DNA of 64,000 nucleotides from Pseudomonadota bacterium (GCA_021325655.1 JAJPGT010000020.1:62001-126000), one strand, 5' to 3'. Shown: positions 5,190-64,000, counted from the first letter of the stretch. The notes: generated from the letters alone by a model not told the origin. Made by a program: numbers and translations.

Positions 5190-6179
5190 ATGCCCGATAT
5201 CCCCCTCCGGCAGATCCAGCCAAACAGATTCAACCCGCACCTGCGGTTCTCGAAGGCCGGCCTTGACGAGCTTGCCGCCAGTATTCGCCAGTTCGGGATT
5301 GTCGAGCCGATCGTCGTCCGGCCCGAGAATGGCCACTACCAGGTCGTCGTCGGCGAGCGCCGCTATCGGGCCGCCCAGCAGGCAGGCCTCGAGGCCGTGC
5401 CTGTGATCATCCGCTCGTTCACCGACGAGGAAGTGATAGAGATCAGCCTCGTGGAGAACGTCCAGCGGGAAGACCTGTCGGCGGTCGAGAAGGCGAAGCT
5501 CTGCCGGGAGCTCCGCCGGCGCTATCCAGAGCGCTACCCTAGTTGGGAGAGCATCGCTCGCCGCGTCGGGGTAGAGCCCGAGACTGTGCGCGCCTGGATG
5601 CGCACGCTGGATCTGCCCGTAGAGGTGCAGGAAAAGATCGCCCCGCGCGAGCAGCAGCGGCGCGTACCGGAGGGCAAGATCGACTACCAGACCGCGCTTC
5701 GCGTGGCCGAGAAGATCAAGGACCCGCAGCGGCAGATCCAGGTGGTGCAGCGGCTGGTCGAGAAGCGGGTCCCGCATCGCGTGGCGAACGAGATCATCCG
5801 CCGCGCCGCGCTGGAGCCCGGTGGCGATGTCGCCTGCGAAGCAAGCCAGGTCCCGCAGCAGTCGGGCCCGTCACTGTCCTTCAGCCACCGTAACTATCGC
5901 GCGATTCTGGACGGCACCAAGACGCAGACCACCCGCCGGCGGCTCGATCCCGCCATCGCCCCGGGCCGCACCGTCACCGCTGCGCTGTCGCGCTTCGCCG
6001 AGCTGCGGGTCGAGGAGGTCGTCCCGCGCAAGCTCGGGGAGATTACCGAGGAAGACGCCCAACGGGAGGGCGCGTCAACACTACGGGAGTTTCGCGAGCA
6101 GTGGTGCCGCCAGTACGGTTCGTGGAACCCGGAGGAGACCGTGTACCTGCTCCGCTTCAGGCTCAGCCGGGTCCTGTAG
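5190..6179 (+). CDS. ParB/Spo0J-like protein fused to a C-terminal ASCH domain
   Basis: This 329-residue protein has two recognisable parts. Residues 1-95 are a ParB N-terminal nuclease/CTPase-type domain (IPLRQIQPNRFNPH, VVGERRYRAAQQ at 54-65, ISLVENVQREDLSAVEKA at 85-102). Residues 100-210 are the helical DNA-binding part with a helix-turn-helix around 118-140. After a short linker, residues 228-329 form an ASCH (PUA-like) domain: LSFSHRNYRAILDGTKTQTT with the GxKxxTxR signature, then LGEITEEDAQREG and WNPEETVYLLRF. ParB domains bind CTP and specific DNA; ASCH domains are thought to bind RNA or nucleotides. No parA partner or parS-like site is seen nearby, so chromosome partition is unlikely. 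AAGGAG at 5176 supports the start. Confidence 0.85.
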   Translation: MPDIPLRQIQPNRFNPHLRFSKAGLDELAASIRQFGIVEPIVVRPENGHYQVVVGERRYRAAQQAGLEAVPVIIRSFTDEEVIEISLVENVQREDLSAVEKAKLCRELRRRYPERYPSWESIARRVGVEPETVRAWMRTLDLPVEVQEKIAPREQQRRVPEGKIDYQTALRVAEKIKDPQRQIQVVQRLVEKRVPHRVANEIIRRAALEPGGDVACEASQVPQQSGPSLSFSHRNYRAILDGTKTQTTRRRLDPAIAPGRTVTAALSRFAELRVEEVVPRKLGEITEEDAQREGASTLREFREQWCRQYGSWNPEETVYLLRFRLSRVL

Positions 6180-53706: not shown

Positions 53707-55596
53707 ATGGCAAAGACAGCCAGTAACTTGTTGATCGAGCGGCTTCTCGACTGGGGCGTTGACACCGTCTTCGGACTGCCCGGCGACGGGATCAACGGGA
53801 TCATGGAAGCGCTGCGCCAGGCGCGCGACCGGATCCGCTTCGTCCAGGTTCGGCACGAGGAAGCGGCCGCGTTTGCCGCCTGCGGCTATGCCAAGTTCAG
53901 CGGCCGGCTGGGCGTCTGCCTCGCCACCTCCGGCCCCGGCGCGATTCACCTGCTCAACGGCCTGTACGACGCCAAGATGGACCAGGCCCCGGTCCTGGCG
54001 CTGACCGGGATGACCTACCACGACCTGATCGGCACCTACTACCAGCAGGACGTCAATACCGACTATCTGTTCCAAGACGTGGCGCTGTTCAACCAGCGGG
54101 TCATGGGTGCGGCCCATGTCTATCCCCTCGTCGACCTCGCGGTCCGGAACGCGCTGACCCGCTTCGGCGTCGCCCACATCACCTTCCCGAACGATCTTCA
54201 GGAGCAGGAGGTCGGGGAGGACGAGCGCTCGGAGAAGAACATCAAGGGCCACAGCTCCACCGCTTTCCAGCCGCCGATCCGGGTTCCGCTCCAGAGCGAG
54301 ATCGAGCGTGCCGCCCGGCTGTTCGAGGGCAAGCGCCGGATCGTCATCCTCGCCGGGAGCGGCGCGCGCGGGGCGACGGAAGAGCTCGAGGCGGCAGCGG
54401 AGAAGCTCGCTGCCCCCATCGTCAAGCCGCTGCTCGGCAAAGACGTTGTCCCGGACGACAGCCCGTACACCACGGGAGGGATCGGGCTGCTCGGCACCCG
54501 TCCCTCCCAGGAGGCGCTGGAGAACTGCGACGCGCTGCTCATTGTCGGCAGCTCGTTCCCCTACATCGATTACCTGCCCGAGCCCGGGCAGGCGACAGCG
54601 GTGCAGATCGACCGCGACCCGGCCCGGCTCGGGCTGCGCTACCCGATCGAGGTCGGGCTGGCAGGCGACGCGAGGGCGACTCTGCAAGCACTGCTCCCGC
54701 TGCTCCCGCGCAACCCGGACCGCTCATTCCTGGAGATGGCGCAACGTGGGATGCGCGACTGGTGGGAGCTGATGCGCGAGCGCGGCTCCCGCACGGACGT
54801 TCCGATGAAGCCACAGGTCGTGTCGTGGAACCTGGGCGAGCTGCTGCGGGACGACGCGATCATCACCTCGGACTCCGGCACGATCGCCACCTGGTCGGCG
54901 CGACAGATCAAGATCCGGCGCGGACAGCGCTTCTCCCTCAGCGGCAACCTGGCCAGCATGGCCAACGGCCTGCCCTACGCCATCGGCGCGCAGATCGCCT
55001 TCCCGAACCGGCAGTGCGTGGCGTTCGTCGGCGACGGCGGCCTGAGCATGCTCATGGCCGAGTTCTCCACCTGCGTCAAGTACAAGCTGCCGGTGAAGGT
55101 CGTCGTTATCAAGAACAACACGCTCGGCCAGATCAAGTGGGAGCAGATGGTGTTCCTGGGCAACCCGGAGTACGGGGTGGACCTGCAGCCGATCGACTTC
55201 GTGAAATTCGCCGAGGCGTGCGGCGGGCGCGGGGTCCATATCGAAGACCCGCGCCGCTGTCGGGAGCAGCTCGCGCAGGCCCTCTCCATGGACGGCCCGG
55301 TCATCATCGAGGCAGTGGTCGATCCGTCCGAGCCGCCGCTGCCACCCAAGATCCGGCCCCAGCAGGCGCTGCACATGGCCGAGGCGCTCGCCCGCGGCGA
55401 ACCGAACCGAACGCGGATCGGGATCACCCTCTTCCGCGACGTGGTCGACGAGACGGCCTACGCCGCCGCACCTTCGGGCGTGCTGGAGCGGGTCAAGGAG
55501 ACCGTCGAGGAGGCGGTGGGACTGGGCGGCTCCTCGGACCAGGGGACACCGAGCGAGCGCGAGGCAGTCCGGGAGCGGGGCGGGCCGACCGACTGA
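53707..55596 (+). CDS. Thiamine-diphosphate enzyme, pyruvate oxidase/dehydrogenase-like
   Basis: This 629-residue protein of the acetolactate-synthase-like superfamily has an N-terminal ThDP domain (LIERLLDWGVDTVFGLPGDG, VRHEEAAAFAACGYAKFSGR with catalytic Glu, LATSGPGAIHLLNGLYDAKM), a central FAD-type domain (RRIVILAGSGARGATEELEA) and a C-terminal ThDP domain with GDGGLSMLMAEFSTC...NN. Similarity is strongest to PoxB/pyruvate oxidase types, which turn pyruvate to acetate plus CO2 or acetyl phosphate; other 2-keto acids are possible. The C-terminal 60 residues are charged, as in membrane-associated PoxB. It lies upstream of the enolase-superfamily operon. Confidence 0.88.
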   Translation: MAKTASNLLIERLLDWGVDTVFGLPGDGINGIMEALRQARDRIRFVQVRHEEAAAFAACGYAKFSGRLGVCLATSGPGAIHLLNGLYDAKMDQAPVLALTGMTYHDLIGTYYQQDVNTDYLFQDVALFNQRVMGAAHVYPLVDLAVRNALTRFGVAHITFPNDLQEQEVGEDERSEKNIKGHSSTAFQPPIRVPLQSEIERAARLFEGKRRIVILAGSGARGATEELEAAAEKLAAPIVKPLLGKDVVPDDSPYTTGGIGLLGTRPSQEALENCDALLIVGSSFPYIDYLPEPGQATAVQIDRDPARLGLRYPIEVGLAGDARATLQALLPLLPRNPDRSFLEMAQRGMRDWWELMRERGSRTDVPMKPQVVSWNLGELLRDDAIITSDSGTIATWSARQIKIRRGQRFSLSGNLASMANGLPYAIGAQIAFPNRQCVAFVGDGGLSMLMAEFSTCVKYKLPVKVVVIKNNTLGQIKWEQMVFLGNPEYGVDLQPIDFVKFAEACGGRGVHIEDPRRCREQLAQALSMDGPVIIEAVVDPSEPPLPPKIRPQQALHMAEALARGEPNRTRIGITLFRDVVDETAYAAAPSGVLERVKETVEEAVGLGGSSDQGTPSEREAVRERGGPTD

Positions 55597-55733: not shown

Positions 55734-56831
55734 ATGAACATTGCTCAGCTCCAGACGCGGGTGTATCGCGTCCCGACCGATCTGCCGGAGGCAGACGGCA
55801 CCTTTGCCTGGAACGCCACCACCATGGTCCTGGTCGAGGCGGTGGCGGAGTCCGGACAGCGCGGGCTTGGCTTCACCTACGCCGCTGCCGAGGCGGCGAA
55901 TCTCATTCGCTGCACGCTGGCCGAGCAGGTCGTCGGGCGTGATGTGGACCACGTCGGCGCGGCCTGGGAGGCGATGGTGCGCAGCGTCCGCAACATGGGC
56001 CGGCCGGGGATCGCCTCGACGGCGATCTCCGCCGTTGACATCGCCCTTTGGGATCTCAAGGCGCGCCTCGCCGGGCAGCCGCTGTATCGCCTGCTCGGCG
56101 CCTGGCGGGACGAGGTGCCCATCTACGGCAGCGGCGGCTTCACCAGCTACGACGACGAGACGCTCCGCAAGCAGTTCACGGGCTGGGTGGAGCAGGGCAT
56201 CCGCATGGTGAAGATGAAGATCGGCAAGGACTGGGGCACCCAGCCCGAGAGCGACGTCCACCGGGTGCAGGTGGCGCGCCAGGCAATCGGCCCGGACGTG
56301 GAGCTGTTCGTCGACGCCAACGGCGCCTACTCGCCCCGCCAGGCGATCGCGATGGCGCAGCGATTCGCGGAGCAGGGGGTGAGCTACTTCGAAGAGCCGG
56401 TCTCGTCCGATCACCTGGCGGAGCTGGCGTTCGTCCGGCAGCACGTCCCGATGGCAGTGGCCGCCGGCGAGTATGGCTACGACCCCTGGTACTTCCGCGA
56501 CATGCTCCAGGCTGGGGCGGTGGACATCCTCCAGGCAGACGTCACCCGCTGCCTGGGCGTCACGGGCTGGCTGGAGGCGGCCCACCTGGCGCACAGCTTC
56601 GCGGTGCCGTTCTCGGCGCACACTGCGCCGTCCATCCACGCCCAGATCGGCTGCGCCGTCCCGCGCCTGGCGCACGTCGAGTACTTCCACGACCATGCGC
56701 GGATCGAGCGGATGTTCTTCGACGGCGCGCCGCAGCCCGTGAACGGCTGCCTGCGGCCGGACCCGACCCGGCCCGGGCTGGGGCTAGAGCTGAAGGCGCA
56801 GGACGCCGAACGCTGGAGGATCGAGGCATGA
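55734..56831 (+). CDS. Enolase-superfamily dehydratase/racemase (mandelate racemase/muconate lactonizing type)
   Basis: This 365-residue protein has a capping domain (LQTRVYRVPTDLPEADGTFA) and a barrel with KxK in RMVKMKIGKDWG, metal ligands in LFVDANGAYSP, YFEEPVSSDH and AAGEYGYDPW, and His in FSAHTAPSIHAQIGC. This set fits acid-sugar dehydratases, and the neighbouring GMC dehydrogenase supports a sugar-acid pathway (inference). It overlaps the next gene by ATGA and is the first gene of a six-gene overlapping set. Confidence 0.88.
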   Translation: MNIAQLQTRVYRVPTDLPEADGTFAWNATTMVLVEAVAESGQRGLGFTYAAAEAANLIRCTLAEQVVGRDVDHVGAAWEAMVRSVRNMGRPGIASTAISAVDIALWDLKARLAGQPLYRLLGAWRDEVPIYGSGGFTSYDDETLRKQFTGWVEQGIRMVKMKIGKDWGTQPESDVHRVQVARQAIGPDVELFVDANGAYSPRQAIAMAQRFAEQGVSYFEEPVSSDHLAELAFVRQHVPMAVAAGEYGYDPWYFRDMLQAGAVDILQADVTRCLGVTGWLEAAHLAHSFAVPFSAHTAPSIHAQIGCAVPRLAHVEYFHDHARIERMFFDGAPQPVNGCLRPDPTRPGLGLELKAQDAERWRIEA

Positions 56832-57037
56832 GCTGGGATGGGCTGGAGCGCGAGGCGCTCCTGGAAGCCGGGCTGCTGGTCTTCGCCGCCGGGCTGGCGA
56901 CTGCCATCGGGACGCTCGTCGTGGCGCGCGCCACGGGCCAGGCGCAGCGAGGCAGCCGGCACGCCGAGCCGCCACCGTCGGTCGGCAGCATTCCCGCCTC
57001 GCGCCACCAGCACATTCAGTCGGCGGCGCCCCGATGA
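56828..57037 (+). CDS. Tiny single-pass membrane protein
   Basis: This 69-residue protein is joined by ATGA overlaps to the genes on both sides. MSWDGLEREALLEAGLLVFA leads into one helix (GLLVFAAGLATAIGTLVVAR), followed by a short hydrophilic tail (TGQAQRGSRHAEPPPSVGSI). It may be a subunit or assembly factor of the membrane dehydrogenase complex (inference). Confidence 0.6.
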   Translation: MSWDGLEREALLEAGLLVFAAGLATAIGTLVVARATGQAQRGSRHAEPPPSVGSIPASRHQHIQSAAPR

Positions 57038-58014
57038 GCGCGCTGTTTCGCGAGTCAACCGCCGCGCACCCGCTGGAGCTGATCGGCAGCGAGCTGCGCC
57101 TGGCCCGGCGTGAGATCCGCGAGGGCCGCTTCCAGCGGACGATGGCGCTGATCGCGGCGTTCTCCGCGCTTGTCAGCGGCTTCGAGGCCTACACCCAGCA
57201 CCTGCGCGGCGCCTTCAACCACTGGCTGATGTGGACTCCGGTCTGGCTCACTCCCCCGACGATGCTCGCCGCCGGCGCGGCGATCGCGAGCGAGCGGATC
57301 GCCCGGCGGGTGCTGCCGCTGGTCGCGCTGATCTCGCTGGCCGACGGCGTGGTCGGCTTCGTCTACCACCTGCGGGGCATCCAGCGCATGCCCGGCGGCT
57401 TCAAGCTGGGCCAGTACAACGTAGTGATGGGGCCGCCGATCTTCGCCCCGCTGCTGATGTGCAGCGTCGGGGTGATCACGCTGCTGGCGGGGCTCCTGCG
57501 CCGGGAGCGGCTCAGCGATGGCGTGGTCCCGCCGGCCGCTGCGCGCCTGTCCGATCTCGTCCGCCCGGCCCCGTCGCGCACTGGCCTGGTCTCCCGCGCC
57601 GAGGCCGCAGTGGCGCACGGCCGCTTCCAGCAAGGGCTGGCACTCACCTCGGCGGTGTTCGCGGTGCTGGCCGGCGGCGAGGCCTACTTCGAGCATCTGC
57701 GCGGCAGCTTCAATCAGCAGTGGATGTGGACTCCAGTCTGGGTGACGCCGCCGATGGTCGCCGCCGGGATCGGCGCGGCCCGGAGCGAGCGCGTCGCCCG
57801 CACGGCCCTGCCGGCGATGGCCGTGGTGACCTTCCTGGATGGCCTGCTGGGCTTCGGACTGCACCTGCGGGGCATCCGCCGCATGCCGGGCGGATTCGGC
57901 AACCTGCAGTTCAACATCACCATGGGGCCGCCGCTCTTCGCGCCGCTGCTGTTCTGCTCGGTCGGCCTGCTCGGGTTCATCGCCTCGCTGCTCCGCCGGG
58001 AGAGAGCCCCATGA
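57034..58014 (+). CDS. Membrane protein built of two tandem copies of a four-helix unit
   Basis: This 326-residue protein has an internal duplication: residues about 30-150 and 190-320 are clearly similar. Both start GRFQ, and share AY-HLRGAFN/HLRGSFN, MWTPVWLTPP/MWTPVWVTPP, HLRGIQRMPGGF/HLRGIRRMPGGF, MGPPIFAPLL/MGPPLFAPLL and LLRRER. Each copy has about four helices and two HLRG motifs. The four His could ligate haem or metal and carry electrons (inference). The gene overlaps both neighbours by ATGA. I know of no named family. Confidence 0.75.
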   Translation: MSALFRESTAAHPLELIGSELRLARREIREGRFQRTMALIAAFSALVSGFEAYTQHLRGAFNHWLMWTPVWLTPPTMLAAGAAIASERIARRVLPLVALISLADGVVGFVYHLRGIQRMPGGFKLGQYNVVMGPPIFAPLLMCSVGVITLLAGLLRRERLSDGVVPPAAARLSDLVRPAPSRTGLVSRAEAAVAHGRFQQGLALTSAVFAVLAGGEAYFEHLRGSFNQQWMWTPVWVTPPMVAAGIGAARSERVARTALPAMAVVTFLDGLLGFGLHLRGIRRMPGGFGNLQFNITMGPPLFAPLLFCSVGLLGFIASLLRRERAP

Positions 58015-58640
58015 CGATCTGGAACCGTTACCCCGACTCCGACATCCTGGCCCAGCGCGGCCATTGGGATGACGCCACCCGCCGGGTGGTGCTCGACCGC
58101 GTCTACAACGTCCCGCCGTTTCGCACCCTGAACCCGCACGAGCGCGAGACACTGGAAGCGCTGTGCGACCGGGTGATCCCGCAGGATTGGAAGCCCGCGG
58201 AGCGGCGGGTGCCGATCGCCCCCTGGATCGACCAGAACATGAGCCAGTCGGCCGTCGAGGGCTTTCGGTTCGAGGACATGCCGCCGAATACCGAGGCCTG
58301 GCGCCAGGGGCTGGCCGGGCTGGACCAGACCGCTCAGGCCCTGTTCGGTCAGCAGTTCGCGGTGCTGCCGCCCGAGCAGCAGGACCAGGTGCTGCACACC
58401 ATTCGCGGGGGCAGCCCGCCCGGCGAGATCTGGCGGCGGCTGCCCGCCAGCCGCTGGTGGAGGTACGTCGCGCTGCGGCAGATCACCGGCGTCTACTACG
58501 CCCACCCTTACGCCTGGGACGAGATCGGCTTTGGCGGACCCGCCTATCCGCGCGGCTACTTCGCGCTCAACTTCGGCGCCCCCGAGCCGTGGGAGGCGCG
58601 CGAGGTCCCGCCGCCCGGGCGGAATGGAGCCCGGCGATGA
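58011..58640 (+). CDS. Gluconate 2-dehydrogenase subunit 3-like protein
   Basis: This 209-residue protein has the family core: NVPPFRTLNPHERETLEALC, DRVIPQDWKPAERRVPIAPW, EAWRQGLAGLDQTAQALFGQ, LPPEQQDQVLHTIRGGSPPG, VYYAHPYAWDEIGFGGPAYP. In known gluconate and FAD-glucose dehydrogenases this small subunit helps to fold and export the GMC flavoprotein via a Tat signal, but no Tat or Sec signal is visible here. It overlaps both neighbours by ATGA. Confidence 0.88.
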   Translation: MTIWNRYPDSDILAQRGHWDDATRRVVLDRVYNVPPFRTLNPHERETLEALCDRVIPQDWKPAERRVPIAPWIDQNMSQSAVEGFRFEDMPPNTEAWRQGLAGLDQTAQALFGQQFAVLPPEQQDQVLHTIRGGSPPGEIWRRLPASRWWRYVALRQITGVYYAHPYAWDEIGFGGPAYPRGYFALNFGAPEPWEAREVPPPGRNGARR

Positions 58641-60301
58641 GGCTGCACGTCCACCTATCGTCAAACTGGGTGCTCGACCGGGAGATGCGGGAATATTCGC
58701 CCGACGAGGAGGTCGACTTCTGCATCGTCGGGACCGGTGCGGGCGGTGGGGTGCTGGCGCAGCGGCTGGCCCGCTACGGCTTCTCAGTCGTCGCCCTGGA
58801 AGCGGGGCCGTGGCACGACAGCGAGACGGACATGGTGTCTGACGAGGCCGGCTCCAGCCGGCTGTACTGGAACGACCTGCGGATCACCGGCGGCCGCGAG
58901 CCCCTGGAGCTGGGTGCCAACAACTCCGGCCGCGGGGTCGGCGGCAGCACCGTTCACTACGCCGCGTTCTGCCCCCGCTTCCATCCCTCTGACTTCCGGG
59001 TGCGAACGCTGGATGGCGTCGCCGTGGACTGGCCGATCAGCTACGACGACCTGGAGCCGTACTACGTCCAGATGGAGCAGGAGTACCCCGTCTCCGGCCC
59101 GGCCTATTATCCGTGGGGCAAGCCGCACGGCTACCCCTACACCCCGCTCCAGGCCGGCACCGCTGGGCAGAAACTGATCGAGGGTTGTGTCAAGCTCGGG
59201 ATCCCGGTCGTCGCCGGAGGCCCGGTCGCCATTCCGGCCGGGGCGTTCGGCAAGCGCCCGCACTGCATCATGCGCGGCTTCTGCCTGCTCGGCTGCAAGG
59301 TCGGCGCCAAGAGCAGCATCCTGGTCAGCCATATTCCCGATGCGATCGAGCACGGCGCCGAGATCCGGGCGCAGTGCATGGCCTACGAGATCCCGATCGA
59401 CGGCGAGGGCCGAGCGATCGGCGTCCGCTACTACGAGACGGACGCCCAGGGGCGCATCCACGACCGCCAGCAGCGGGCCAAGGCGGTGGTGGTGGCCGGC
59501 TACGCGATTGAGTCGCCGCGGCTGCTGCTGAACTCCACGTCCAGCCGCTTTCCTCACGGCCTGGCGAACTCCAGCGGGCTGGTCGGCAAGTTCCTGATGG
59601 CGCAGGCGGCACCCGTAGTCTGGGGGCGCTTCGAAGAGTTGATCCGCCAGTACAAGGCGCCGCCAGCCTGCGCCTGCAGCGAGGAGTTCTACGAGACCGA
59701 CCCGCGGAACGACTTCGTCCGCGGCTACTCGCTGCAGACCGTGGCGCCGCTGCCGATCGCGATGGCGCACCTGATTGTGGACGAGGACGGCCGCTTTGGC
59801 GAAGAACTGGTCGTGGCGATGCAGGAGTACAACCACTACGCCGCGATCGGAGTGCTGGGCGAGATTCTGCCCGATGAGCGCAACGCGGTCACGCTCCACC
59901 CCATCTTCAGGGACCAGTACGGCATCCCGGTCCCCTATGTCCACTTCAACCTGTTCGAGAATGACCAGAAGCTGCTGCGGGCCGGGATCCGCCGGGCCGA
60001 GGAGGTGCTGCAGGCCGCGGGCGCGGTGGAGACGCACGCGGTCCACCGCTACGCCCACCTGGTGGGCACCTGCCGGATGGGATTCTCGCCGAGCGACTCT
60101 GTGGTCGACCAGTGGTGCCGAAGCTGGGACGTCCCGAACCTGTTCGTCTGCGACGGGAGCGTGCTGCCGACGCAGGGTTCGGCCAACCCGGCGCTGACGA
60201 TCTCGGCGCTAGCGGCCCGAACGGCAGACTGGCTGCGCCAGGCGGCCCCGCGCGGCGAGTTGGCGCAGCGGCCGGTGGCGGCCAGGCGAGGTGGGCGATG
60301 A
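58637..60301 (+). CDS. GMC flavoprotein dehydrogenase with a predicted 3Fe-4S site
   Basis: This 554-residue FAD enzyme is the catalytic subunit of a gluconate/FAD-glucose dehydrogenase type complex. It shows the Rossmann motif VDFCIVGTGAGGGVLAQRLA (residues 27-46), GVGGSTVHYAAFCPRFHPSD, and the C-terminal pair HRYAHLVGTCRMG (His) and GSANPALTISALAARTADW (Asn). Cys210, Cys216 and Cys220 form C-x5-C-x3-C, the spacing that holds the 3Fe-4S cluster in FAD-glucose dehydrogenase. The start is ATG 58637 (ATGA overlap with subunit 3). The sugar or alcohol substrate is unknown. Confidence 0.9.
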   Translation: MRLHVHLSSNWVLDREMREYSPDEEVDFCIVGTGAGGGVLAQRLARYGFSVVALEAGPWHDSETDMVSDEAGSSRLYWNDLRITGGREPLELGANNSGRGVGGSTVHYAAFCPRFHPSDFRVRTLDGVAVDWPISYDDLEPYYVQMEQEYPVSGPAYYPWGKPHGYPYTPLQAGTAGQKLIEGCVKLGIPVVAGGPVAIPAGAFGKRPHCIMRGFCLLGCKVGAKSSILVSHIPDAIEHGAEIRAQCMAYEIPIDGEGRAIGVRYYETDAQGRIHDRQQRAKAVVVAGYAIESPRLLLNSTSSRFPHGLANSSGLVGKFLMAQAAPVVWGRFEELIRQYKAPPACACSEEFYETDPRNDFVRGYSLQTVAPLPIAMAHLIVDEDGRFGEELVVAMQEYNHYAAIGVLGEILPDERNAVTLHPIFRDQYGIPVPYVHFNLFENDQKLLRAGIRRAEEVLQAAGAVETHAVHRYAHLVGTCRMGFSPSDSVVDQWCRSWDVPNLFVCDGSVLPTQGSANPALTISALAARTADWLRQAAPRGELAQRPVAARRGGR

Positions 60302-60492
60302 GCGAGCGGGCGACCCGGCCGCTGCTGGTGTCCGCCTCGGGTCGCCCGCTCGCGGAGTTCTGGGCGGCGCTCCGCTGGGCGCTGCGCTCCTGGCTTCGGC
60401 CGGCCGACACTCCGGCCCACTGGGAGCAGGACACCGCGACCACCCGCCAGACAACGCGGCCGGCCAAGCCGAAGAACGTCCGGCCCGGCTGA
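60298..60492 (+). CDS. Small basic protein at the end of the dehydrogenase operon
   Basis: This 64-residue protein overlaps the GMC gene by ATGA. It begins MSERATRPLLVSASGRPLAE, has a short helix with Trp residues (FWAALRWALRSWLRP), and ends in a charged tail. No motif is recognised; its firm coupling suggests a complex component or accessory factor. Confidence 0.5.
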   Translation: MSERATRPLLVSASGRPLAEFWAALRWALRSWLRPADTPAHWEQDTATTRQTTRPAKPKNVRPG

Positions 60493-60525: not shown

Positions 60526-60966
60526 GTGCAGTTTCAGCAGTTCGAAGACCGCTACATCACCCGGCTCCGGAGCGGCGAGCGCGCGCTGGCGACGCTCACC
60601 GACTTCCTCCGGGCCCAGGGAGTCTCGTTCGCCAACCTCAGCGGCGCCGGGGCGGTGGAATGGGTCGAGCTCGGCTACTGGAATGCCGAGACCAGGCAGT
60701 ATGAATACCGCCGCTTCGACGAGCAGCTCGAAGTGGTCAGCTTCCAGGGGAACTGCGCCCGCAAGGACGGCCAGCCGTTCCTGCACATCCACGGCGTGTT
60801 CGCCCGGCGCGACTACTCGGTGGTCGGCGGCCACGTGAAGGAGGCGGGCGTCCACCCGACGCTGGAGGTCTGGCTCCGGACCGAGTGGCTCGACGTTCAC
60901 CGCTCGCGCGATCCGGAGAGTGGGCTGGACCTGCTCGACCTGCCGGGCCGCTCCCAGAGCGGGTAG
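60526..60966 (+). CDS. PPC (DUF296) domain protein
   Basis: This 146-residue protein forms the PPC domain (plant and prokaryote conserved; DUF296): YITRLRSGERALATLTDFLR, VSFANLSGAGAVEWVELGYW, LEVVSFQGNCARKDGQPFLH, IHGVFARRDYSVVGGHVKEA, TLEVWLRTEWLDVHRSRDP. Bacterial members are trimeric and of unknown function; the AT-hook of plant homologues is absent. AGGAGA sets GTG 60526. It follows the dehydrogenase operon by 33 nt and may belong to it. Confidence 0.9.
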   Translation: MQFQQFEDRYITRLRSGERALATLTDFLRAQGVSFANLSGAGAVEWVELGYWNAETRQYEYRRFDEQLEVVSFQGNCARKDGQPFLHIHGVFARRDYSVVGGHVKEAGVHPTLEVWLRTEWLDVHRSRDPESGLDLLDLPGRSQSG

Positions 60967-61089: not shown

Positions 61090-63051
61090 GTGAGCGACAG
61101 CGGGCCGTGCCCAGAGCGCTATCGACCGATCAGCGCCTACGCGCTGATCGGGGACTGCCACACCGCGGCGCTGGTCTCGGACCACGGCTCCATCGACTGG
61201 TACTGTCCTACCCGGTTCGACGCGCCGGCGGTGTTCTGCCGGCTGCTCGACGACCAGCGCGGCGGCTTGTTCCAGATCGCCCCACCGCCACCATTCTCCA
61301 CCCGGCGGCGCTACGTGGAGGCCAGCAACGTACTGGAGACCACCTTTGCCACCGCGCACGGCCGGGTCCGCCTGACTGATCTCCTGCCCGTGCAGCGGCG
61401 CACCGCGGACCACGCCGGCTACGACGTCAGCTCCTGCGGGCGAATCCTGCGCCGGGTGGAGGCGCTGGCGGGCGACGCCGAGGTGGAGCTGCGCTTCCGG
61501 CCGACGTTCGACTTCGCCCGCCCGAACGTGGGCGAGCTGGCCGCGACGGCGTTCGGGGCGTTGGCACGGCACGGGCAGCAGCAGCTCGAGCTGCATTGCC
61601 CCGGGGTGGAGCTTACCGCGGATGGCCAGGGCGGGCTGCAGGGGCGGCTGCGCCTGGGCGCCGGCGAGCAGTGCTGGATTGTGCTTTCGGACCTTTGCCA
61701 GGCCGAGGGACGCGAGCCGCCAGATCCAGACCAGTGCCAGGAGCAGCTCGCGCAGACACTTGAGTACTGGCAGGAATGGGCCGAGAGCTGTACCTACCGC
61801 GGACCCTACCGCGACCAGGTGCTGCGCAGCGCCCTGGCGCTCAAGCTGCTGACCTATGAGCCGACGGGCGCGCTCGTCGCCGCTCCCACCACCTCGCTGC
61901 CGGAGGACCTCGGCGGCGAGCGCAACTGGGACTACCGCTACACCTGGCTGCGCGACAGCTCGCTGATCCTGTTCGCTCTGCTGACCGTCGGCTACGAGGA
62001 GGAGGCTCAGGACTTCATCCAGTGGCTGGAGGGTGTGACCCAGCGGGATCCGCACCGGCCGCTCCAGGTGCTGTACACCGTGGACGGCGAGCGCGAGGTG
62101 CCCGAGCGCACGCTGGACCATCTCGCCGGCTATGCCTGCTCGCGCCCGGTCCGCGTCGGCAACGCGGCCGCCTCGCAGCGGCAGTTCGACATCTATGGCT
62201 CAGTGTTGAACGCGGCGGAGCTGCACTACCGCGCGCACGGGCTGCGAGACCAGCGCCACCAGGCGGGACTGCTCTGCCCGACGCCAGAGGTCTGGGCGCT
62301 GCTCCGTGACCTCGTCGAGCAGGCCGCGCAGCGTTGGGAGGAGCCCGACAACGGCATCTGGGAGGTCCGCGGGCGCCAGCAGCAGTTCCTCTACTCGCGG
62401 CTCATGTGCTGGGCGGCGCTGGATCGCGGGATTCGGCTCGCCCAGGCCCATCAGCTCCCCGCGCCCCTGGCGCGCTGGCAGCGGATCCGTGAGGAGATCC
62501 GGGCCGCGATCCTGGAGCGGGGCTACGACCGGCGGCTGGGCGCCTTCACCCAGGCGTTCGGGAGCCAGGCGCTGGACGCCAGCGCGCTGGCGATCCCGCG
62601 CATCGGCTTCCTGCCAGCCACCGATCCGCGGGTGCGCTCGACCGTAGAGCGCATCCGCCAGGCGCTCACGCAGAATGGACTGGTGTACCGCTATTGCACG
62701 GACGATGGGATCGCCGGCGGAGAAGCGACCTTCGCGCTCTGCAGCTTCTGGCTGGTCGACGCGCTCGCGCTGCAAGGCCGGCTGGATGAGGCGACCGAGC
62801 TGTTCGAGCGCGTGATTGGCTACGCCAACGACGTCGGGCTGCTGTCCGAGGAGATCGACCCGGTGCAGGGGCTCCTGCTCGGCAACTTCCCTCAGGGGTT
62901 CACCCATCTGGGCCTGATCCAGTCGGCCGTGCTGCTGGCCCAGGCGGCCAGGCACGGACCCGAGGAGGAAGCCCAGTCCGAAGCGGACCGGGCCGGGCGG
63001 GCCGGGCGCGCAGCGGCGGGCGGCCATCCGCGGCATCGCGGGGGCACGTAG
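61090..63051 (+). CDS. Glycoside hydrolase family 15 (glucoamylase/trehalase-like)
   Basis: This 653-residue cytoplasmic-type enzyme with no signal peptide has an N-terminal beta-sandwich (RPISAYALIGDCHTAALVSD, HGSIDWYCPTRFDAPAVFCR, VLETTFATAHGRVRLTDLLP) and an (alpha/alpha)6 barrel (AAPTTSLPEDLGGERNWDYR, YTWLRDSSLILFALLTVGYE, DNGIWEVRGRQQQFLYSRLM, LLSEEIDPVQGLLLGNFPQG with the second catalytic Glu). GH15 enzymes of this bacterial branch hydrolyse trehalose or alpha-1,4 glucans. GTG 61090 follows GGGGGAGGAG. Confidence 0.92.
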   Translation: MSDSGPCPERYRPISAYALIGDCHTAALVSDHGSIDWYCPTRFDAPAVFCRLLDDQRGGLFQIAPPPPFSTRRRYVEASNVLETTFATAHGRVRLTDLLPVQRRTADHAGYDVSSCGRILRRVEALAGDAEVELRFRPTFDFARPNVGELAATAFGALARHGQQQLELHCPGVELTADGQGGLQGRLRLGAGEQCWIVLSDLCQAEGREPPDPDQCQEQLAQTLEYWQEWAESCTYRGPYRDQVLRSALALKLLTYEPTGALVAAPTTSLPEDLGGERNWDYRYTWLRDSSLILFALLTVGYEEEAQDFIQWLEGVTQRDPHRPLQVLYTVDGEREVPERTLDHLAGYACSRPVRVGNAAASQRQFDIYGSVLNAAELHYRAHGLRDQRHQAGLLCPTPEVWALLRDLVEQAAQRWEEPDNGIWEVRGRQQQFLYSRLMCWAALDRGIRLAQAHQLPAPLARWQRIREEIRAAILERGYDRRLGAFTQAFGSQALDASALAIPRIGFLPATDPRVRSTVERIRQALTQNGLVYRYCTDDGIAGGEATFALCSFWLVDALALQGRLDEATELFERVIGYANDVGLLSEEIDPVQGLLLGNFPQGFTHLGLIQSAVLLAQAARHGPEEEAQSEADRAGRAGRAAAGGHPRHRGGT

Positions 63052-63203
63052 GCGCCCGCTCGGCAAGCTTCCTGCAGCAGCGTGCTTGCTTGAATGCGCC
63101 CTCGCCGCGCCGCTGGCAGCCAGCCCCGCGCAGCGCGTATCTTGCCCCAGGGAGCCCCGTTCGTGGTCTCCCGCCTAACCCGTTAGCACATCAGGAACGC
63201 AGG

Positions 63204-64000
63204 GTGAGCCCCCTGAGACGCTCCCTTAGCGCCGGCTTGCTCGGCCTCACGGTGTCGGGCTGCCAGGCACCGCTCGACAGCTTCGCGCCCGTCACCACCC
63301 AGGGCCAGTCGATCGTCGGGCTGTTCACGCTCGCTCTCGCCATCTCGGCGCTCATCTTCCTGCTGGTCATCGTGGTGCTCACGGTAGTGCTCGTCCGCTT
63401 TCGCGCCCGGCCCGGGGACGAGGAGCCGCCACAGGTCGAGGGTAACCAGCGGCTGGAGATCGGCTGGACCGCCGCGCCAGCGCTCATCCTGGCTGTGATG
63501 TTTGTGTTGACCCTCCGCACCATGACCAGCGTGAACGCCAGCCCGCCGTCCGCGCTGCGGGTGCGGGTTATCGGGCATCAGTGGTGGTGGGAGTACCAGT
63601 ACCCGGACCTGGGGATCGTGACCGCCAACGAGCTCCATCTGCCTGCCGGCACCCCTGCCCAGCTCGAGCTGACCGGAGCGGACGTTATCCACAGCTTCTG
63701 GGTGCCCCAGTTCGGCTGGAAGCGCGATACGATCCCCGGCAAGATCAACCTGCTGCCGGTGCAGATCGACCAGCCCGGCATCTACGACGGCGCCTGCACC
63801 GAGTACTGCGGCACGCAGCACGCCTGGATGCGGATCCGCGTGGTGGGCCAGAGCCCGAGCGACTTCGACGCCTGGGTGCAGCAGCAGCGCACCCCGGCCC
63901 TGCCACCGAGCGGGGATCTGGCCAGCCGGGGGCAGAGTCTCTACCTCTCGAACACTTGCGTCAACTGCCACACCATCCAGGGCACCCCTTCCAACGGTCG
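63204..64000 (+). CDS. ctaC: Cytochrome c oxidase subunit II with fused cytochrome c domain, 3' end cut by window edge
   Basis: The first 265 codons are seen. A lipoprotein-type leader (LSAGLLGLTVSGCQAP) precedes two transmembrane helices (SIVGLFTLALAISALIFLLV; AAPALILAVMFVLTLRTMTS), the QWWWEYQYPDLGI and DVIHSFWVPQFGWKRDTIPG segments, and the CuA site DGACTEYCGTQHAWMRIRV. Residues after 230 open a class I cytochrome c (SRGQSLYLSNTCVNCHTIQG), so this is a caa3-type subunit. It passes electrons from a donor to subunit I. The start is GTG 63204 after AGGAA. The 152 nt upstream holds no gene I can support. Confidence 0.95.
   Translation, partial: MSPLRRSLSAGLLGLTVSGCQAPLDSFAPVTTQGQSIVGLFTLALAISALIFLLVIVVLTVVLVRFRARPGDEEPPQVEGNQRLEIGWTAAPALILAVMFVLTLRTMTSVNASPPSALRVRVIGHQWWWEYQYPDLGIVTANELHLPAGTPAQLELTGADVIHSFWVPQFGWKRDTIPGKINLLPVQIDQPGIYDGACTEYCGTQHAWMRIRVVGQSPSDFDAWVQQQRTPALPPSGDLASRGQSLYLSNTCVNCHTIQGTPSNG

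Follow-up and report, generated by a model that had tools for sequence, protein, structure and literature searches.

Dehydrogenases of the GMC type that carry a [3Fe-4S] cluster have been known as exported enzymes that are linked to cytochrome c, and are used in glucose biosensors. The locus analysed here, at positions 55734-60492 of a stretch of 64,000 nucleotides from a Pseudomonadota bacterium (GCA_021325655.1, JAJPGT010000020.1:62001-126000; "the window"), encodes a GMC flavoprotein and its small subunit next to a duplicated membrane protein, and a multiheme cytochrome c subunit is not encoded in any of its six genes. The question that is raised by this arrangement is where the electrons of the flavoprotein would go. 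An earlier note on the window had read the six genes as a possible membrane GMC dehydrogenase; we consider it somewhat probable, judging from gene content and conservation, that they encode a respiratory dehydrogenase complex, in which the membrane protein would take the electrons and reduce quinone, in place of cytochrome c.

Organization of the operon and the surrounding cassette

The six open reading frames, all on the plus strand, encode an enolase-superfamily (MR/MLE) enzyme of 365 residues (55734-56831), a single-pass protein of 69 residues (56828-57037), the membrane protein of 326 residues (57034-58014), a subunit 3 protein of 209 residues (58011-58640), the GMC flavoprotein of 554 residues (58637-60301) and a protein of 64 residues (60298-60492). 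Direct reading of the sequence bears out the six-gene operon of the earlier note, with all reading frames in place and consecutive genes joined by 4-nt ATGA overlaps at 56828, 57034, 58011, 58637 and 60298. Since adenine is the third base in only 3.3% of the codons here (GC3 is 91%), five consecutive ATGA junctions are not due to chance; a codon-independent chance model gives a probability of about 4e-8. Of 27 plasmid cases, 24 likewise have overlapping junctions between the membrane protein, subunit 3 and GMC genes. Pfam agrees with the assignments that had been made for the enolase-superfamily enzyme, for subunit 3 (Gluconate_2-dh3, hitchhiker-like; PF13618, E=1.1e-26) and for the GMC protein (PF00732/PF05199), while the proteins of 69, 326 and 64 residues have no match in Pfam or NCBIfam.

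The conserved unit begins one gene before the six-gene set, with a TPP-dependent, pyruvate-oxidase-like enzyme (53707-55596; Pfam and NCBIfam, closest to PRK08273) that is adjacent in many relatives, and runs on through a PCC/PPC-domain protein of 146 residues (60526-60966; PF03479), the position of which is taken in some other cassettes by an ASRT-family sensor, and a glucoamylase/trehalase-like GH15 glycoside hydrolase (61090-63051; Pfam and NCBIfam), which is a recurrent neighbour. The enolase-family enzyme keeps the MR_MLE domains and the KxK, metal-ligand D/E/E and D-H motifs, i.e. the features of MR/MLE acid-sugar dehydratases; its closest solved relative is PDB 3cyj (E=1.9e-109), an MR/MLE protein from Rubrobacter xylanophilus. 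As the description of this entry goes no further than MR/MLE-like, the likeness does not fix the substrate. The two smallest genes are real, but limited to close relatives: tblastn finds the 69-residue protein at 35-40% identity in three of them (loci L004, L005 and L006), and the motif W.LRSW..P.....WEQ of the 64-residue protein is kept in relatives (tblastn: L004, L005 and L049-L052). Elsewhere in the same genome, a second subunit 3 match (L081:901-1812; G000:C10, approximately 5192-5503) is broken, with an internal TGA, and is located beside the remnant of a GMC C-terminus.

The FAD motif, the sequence VGGSTVHY and the His and Asn motifs of the catalytic region are all present in the GMC protein, and its closest relatives in the PDB are the catalytic subunits of fructose dehydrogenase and of the Burkholderia glucose dehydrogenase. 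The likeness to the FAD-dependent fructose, glucose and gluconate dehydrogenases (Burkholderia cepacia FAD-GDH; fructose dehydrogenase, 7w2j and 8k6k) extends over most of the length of the GMC protein, and includes the cysteine spacing of the [3Fe-4S] cluster and a small subunit of the PF13618 type. In the Burkholderia glucose dehydrogenase, the cluster is held by Cys212, Cys218 and Cys222 (PMC6719666); the same C-x5-C-x3-C spacing occurs here in the motif CIMRGFCLLGC (59264-59296), and all complete GMC proteins of the membrane-linked type that we have inspected retain it, which points to a [3Fe-4S] cluster in this protein as well. Unlike the known complexes, the small subunit here is without a Tat signal, and a two-repeat membrane protein occurs instead of a multiheme cytochrome c. 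As judged from the sequences, the set thus lacks two defining features of the fructose/glucose dehydrogenase type, the Tat signal and the cytochrome c subunit, and would be a variant that works like this type.

The N-termini of subunit 3 and of the GMC protein are indeed free of Tat signals, as had been claimed, and the subunit 3 proteins that are linked to the membrane gene have short, hydrophilic N-termini, none of them with a Tat signal. Clear Tat signals are found on subunit 3 at loci L112, L113, L114 and L119, all four without the membrane gene; however, Tat-less pairs of GMC and subunit-3-like proteins also occur without it (L110, L117, L118 and L120), and therefore the absence of a Tat signal does not, by itself, demand a membrane gene: the two traits are imperfectly coupled.

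Recurrence of the membrane gene beside GMC and subunit 3

The 326-residue protein and subunit 3 have each been sought in the same 400 Chloroflexota genomes, where the membrane gene is present in all 31 genomes that have a strong subunit 3 match (E<1e-30). In the Chloroflexota loci that we have fetched, it adjoins subunit 3, and the GMC gene too where the contig allows; a single further match of the cassette type, in genome G236, stops at a contig edge. Beyond Chloroflexota, the distribution is based on plasmid records, 12 of which matched the membrane protein: plasmids of Deinococcota, Actinomycetota, Acidobacteriota and Pseudomonadota carry the same gene order, so that no fewer than five bacterial phyla have the gene set. 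The membrane protein, subunit 3 and GMC genes are contiguous on plasmids of Deinococcus, Frondihabitans, Granulicella, Paraburkholderia, Caballeronia, Rhizobium, Lichenicola, Komagataeibacter and Croceicoccus; in Deinococcus sp. D7000, subunit 3 and GMC form one fusion protein of 865 residues (L069:7440-10037). The search for the 326-residue protein beside GMC and subunit 3 genes, which the earlier note had suggested, is therefore strongly positive, in the 31 Chloroflexota genomes as well as in four other phyla.

A plasmid search that started from the GMC protein has given a concordant division: in every inspected record at 43% identity or more, the membrane gene is located upstream, while it is present in none of the nine inspected records at 40% identity or less (L117-L120 by annotation only). 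In a tree of 52 GMC proteins, those with the membrane gene sit on one side of a single branch (support 90/75), i.e. the presence of the membrane gene requires one change, a value as low as which was reached in none of 500 shuffles.

In the usual cassette, the TPP enzyme comes first, followed by the enolase-family enzyme, the membrane protein, subunit 3 and GMC, and an SDR, a GH15 and an ASRT or PPC protein are frequent extras; many Chloroflexota cassettes add a fused FAD/Fe-S protein that resembles 2-hydroxyacid dehydrogenases. The association of the membrane gene with the GMC/subunit 3 pair is stricter than that with the genes for the enolase-family enzyme, the TPP enzyme or GH15. Embleya, which had been considered as a case of the membrane gene without GMC, has been rejected as a counterexample, as only a relict is present (L078:6158-8866): it consists of a TPP-enzyme fragment in fusion with the C-terminal 43 residues of the membrane protein, and the rest of the cassette is gone. 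A coxA-like gene is located approximately 3 kb from this relict.

Conserved histidines and family of the membrane protein

The duplication that had been noticed in the membrane protein is a tandem one, with 75 of 136 residues (55%) identical between repeat 1 (residues 24-159; 57103-57510) and repeat 2 (residues 189-324; 57598-58005), each with four predicted transmembrane helices. An AlphaFold model (pLDDT 82, pTM 0.75) likewise has four long helices per repeat. Foldseek comparison of this model with the PDB has given nothing at E<=0.001, a profile search of PDB sequences with the family has given no match, and PADLOC has returned none; across Pfam, NCBIfam, PDB sequences and Foldseek, there is no sequence or fold match to the described cytochrome b or quinone-reductase subunit families.

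Among the 25 columns that are invariant in 36 two-repeat proteins from four phyla are four histidines, His56 (57199-57201) and His112 (57367-57369) in repeat 1, and His221 (57694-57696) and His277 (57862-57864) in repeat 2; these are the only invariant histidines, they may be located at the ends of the transmembrane helices of the AlphaFold model, and the two histidines per repeat are kept in 82 of 82 repeats, remote homologues included. The family also occurs in single-repeat forms (Deinococcus, Frondihabitans, and genomes G127 and G276) and in forms split over two genes (G105, G153, G201 and G233), besides the fused two-repeat forms, which suggests a history that leads from homodimer to fusion. 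In the Deinococcus cassettes, the single-repeat membrane gene is preceded by a gene for a small VKOR-like membrane protein (L069:6595-6993 and L070:6592-6981), which overlaps its start.

The earlier note had set homologues apart from GMC genes against its proposal, and the outcome is divided: the members of the cassette are found with GMC, whereas remote members in G088, G240 and G128 are found without it. The homologues in G088 and G240 directly adjoin octaheme cytochromes c (PF13447), and the one in G088 is also near a cytochrome b-ferredoxin fusion; since such neighbours speak for a redox role that is independent of GMC, the family looks like a general redox-linked module, not one exclusive to GMC enzymes. 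The homologue in G128 has one repeat and no redox neighbour. The proposal of a membrane GMC dehydrogenase thus stands as far as the recurrent unit of GMC, subunit 3 and membrane protein is concerned, without a dedicated cytochrome c or a Tat signal, but not with respect to a family that would serve GMC enzymes only.

Remote homologues that keep all four histidines beside PF13447 octaheme cytochromes c (L068:5683-10279, where a cytochrome b-ferredoxin fusion is adjacent as well, and L115:6512-9119) possibly represent a separate, undescribed respiratory module. At L116:9231-9803, a single-repeat relative keeps both histidines and has no obvious redox neighbour, which suggests that the membrane family is broader.

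Proposed electron outlet of the dehydrogenase

In the proposed complex, the GMC flavoprotein would oxidize a sugar or a sugar acid, a substrate class that we infer from the neighbouring genes, and the electrons would pass from FAD to the [3Fe-4S] cluster at C-x5-C-x3-C, the region of which would be covered and stabilized by subunit 3, in the manner of glucose dehydrogenase. The two-repeat membrane protein would anchor the GMC-subunit 3 pair and take over the electrons at a single site or at two sites, formed by the histidine pair of each repeat and perhaps binding heme b or quinone, and would then reduce the quinone pool; a redox role of this protein is suggested by its co-localization with the other genes and by its invariant histidines. 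Reoxidation of the quinol would fall to the bc complex and the caa3 oxidase that are encoded just downstream, and the oxidized product would be handled further in the cytoplasm by the enolase-family and TPP enzymes. The order of a flavin or catalytic subunit, an Fe-S relay, a His-rich membrane subunit and quinone is known from fumarate reductase/succinate dehydrogenase and from NarGHI; the analogy is one of working principle only, the membrane subunit here being without sequence or fold match.

The respiratory cluster starts shortly past the end of the GH15 gene, with cytochrome c oxidase subunit II and its fused cytochrome c at 63090, which continues past the end of the window at 64000, and comprises caa3 coxB with cytochrome c, a fused coxA/III-like protein of 761 residues, a Rieske protein and a cytochrome b-cytochrome c fusion (L088:1091-6789). 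The order GH15-coxB-ctaD is the same in Caballeronia SBC1, and oxidase or bc genes also flank the cassettes of Deinococcus, Frondihabitans, other Caballeronia and genome G025. The linkage to a terminal oxidase is genuine at this locus and at those of some relatives, but, being confined to a minority of loci, it has been rejected as a general trait.

Alternatively, the GMC protein could belong to an ordinary cytochrome c-linked dehydrogenase with its cytochrome subunit encoded elsewhere, since the genome has several cytochrome c domains, one of them in the nearby subunit II of the caa3 oxidase. We regard this as very improbable: a search for such a subunit has returned, near the operon, only matches that are part of the caa3 and bc complexes; no cytochrome subunit gene recurs beside this GMC type at the inspected loci; and, in the absence of a Tat signal, a periplasmic cytochrome could not meet the GMC protein by the known route.

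Two further readings concern the membrane protein itself. That it would be a permease or channel, bringing the substrate in or letting the product out while the GMC-subunit 3 pair passes its electrons to a soluble acceptor, agrees with its wealth of conserved Gly and Pro residues and its internal duplication, which occur in transporters, with its weak Foldseek matches, mostly transporters and all insignificant, and with the Tat-less GMC pairs that have no membrane gene; it is nevertheless unlikely, as the neighbours of the remote homologues are octaheme cytochromes c and not sugar genes, the invariant histidines are confined to two per repeat, and the enolase, TPP and GH15 genes follow the membrane gene less strictly than GMC and subunit 3 do. 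The strict adjacency and the subunit 3-GMC fusion would fit any structural partner, and thus also a mere anchor or assembly factor, with the electrons passing from the [3Fe-4S] cluster directly to quinone; such a protein would not need the two invariant histidines of each repeat, which are kept in five phyla and also where GMC is absent, and we think that this reading, too, has a low probability.

The main weakness of the quinone-reducing complex that we favour is its sidedness. Counts of Lys and Arg near the helices are lower in the histidine-bearing loops of 48 of 52 repeats of the Chloroflexota type, and higher in none, which, by the positive-inside rule, places the histidines outside; when net charge is considered, however, the bias between the two sides nearly vanishes, so that the topology is uncertain. 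The Tat-less GMC and subunit 3 proteins should be inside, and direct transfer from there to a heme at outward histidines would be too far; this conflict is real. The earlier suggestion that the complex may face the cytoplasm is accordingly in line with the missing Tat signals, but at odds with the charge-based topology.

De Souza, Iyer and Aravind (2009; PMC2739507), in the part of the article available, describe ASRT genes together with pyruvate decarboxylase/oxidase, dehydratase/racemase and glycolate-oxidase-like genes, including those of Rubrobacter xylanophilus, a neighbourhood that apparently corresponds to parts of this cassette; in that part, the authors neither mention the trio of GMC, subunit 3 and membrane protein nor propose a dehydrogenase complex. 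We have found no description of the cassette or of the trio in the open-access literature. We tentatively raise the possibility, in which we place less than even confidence, that the membrane protein founds a novel family of membrane redox proteins with histidine pairs, perhaps cytochromes of the b type, which would link different dehydrogenases, both GMC/[3Fe-4S] enzymes in the cytoplasm and octaheme cytochromes that are exported, to the quinone pool in single-repeat, split and fused forms. If the proposed complex is real, there would be a widespread, Tat-less branch of the GMC [3Fe-4S] dehydrogenases with a different electron outlet; a family of respiratory membrane subunits would be added, giving a name to a protein that, in five phyla, bears the annotation "hypothetical", and the cassette would point to an oxidative sugar pathway that is carried on plasmids.
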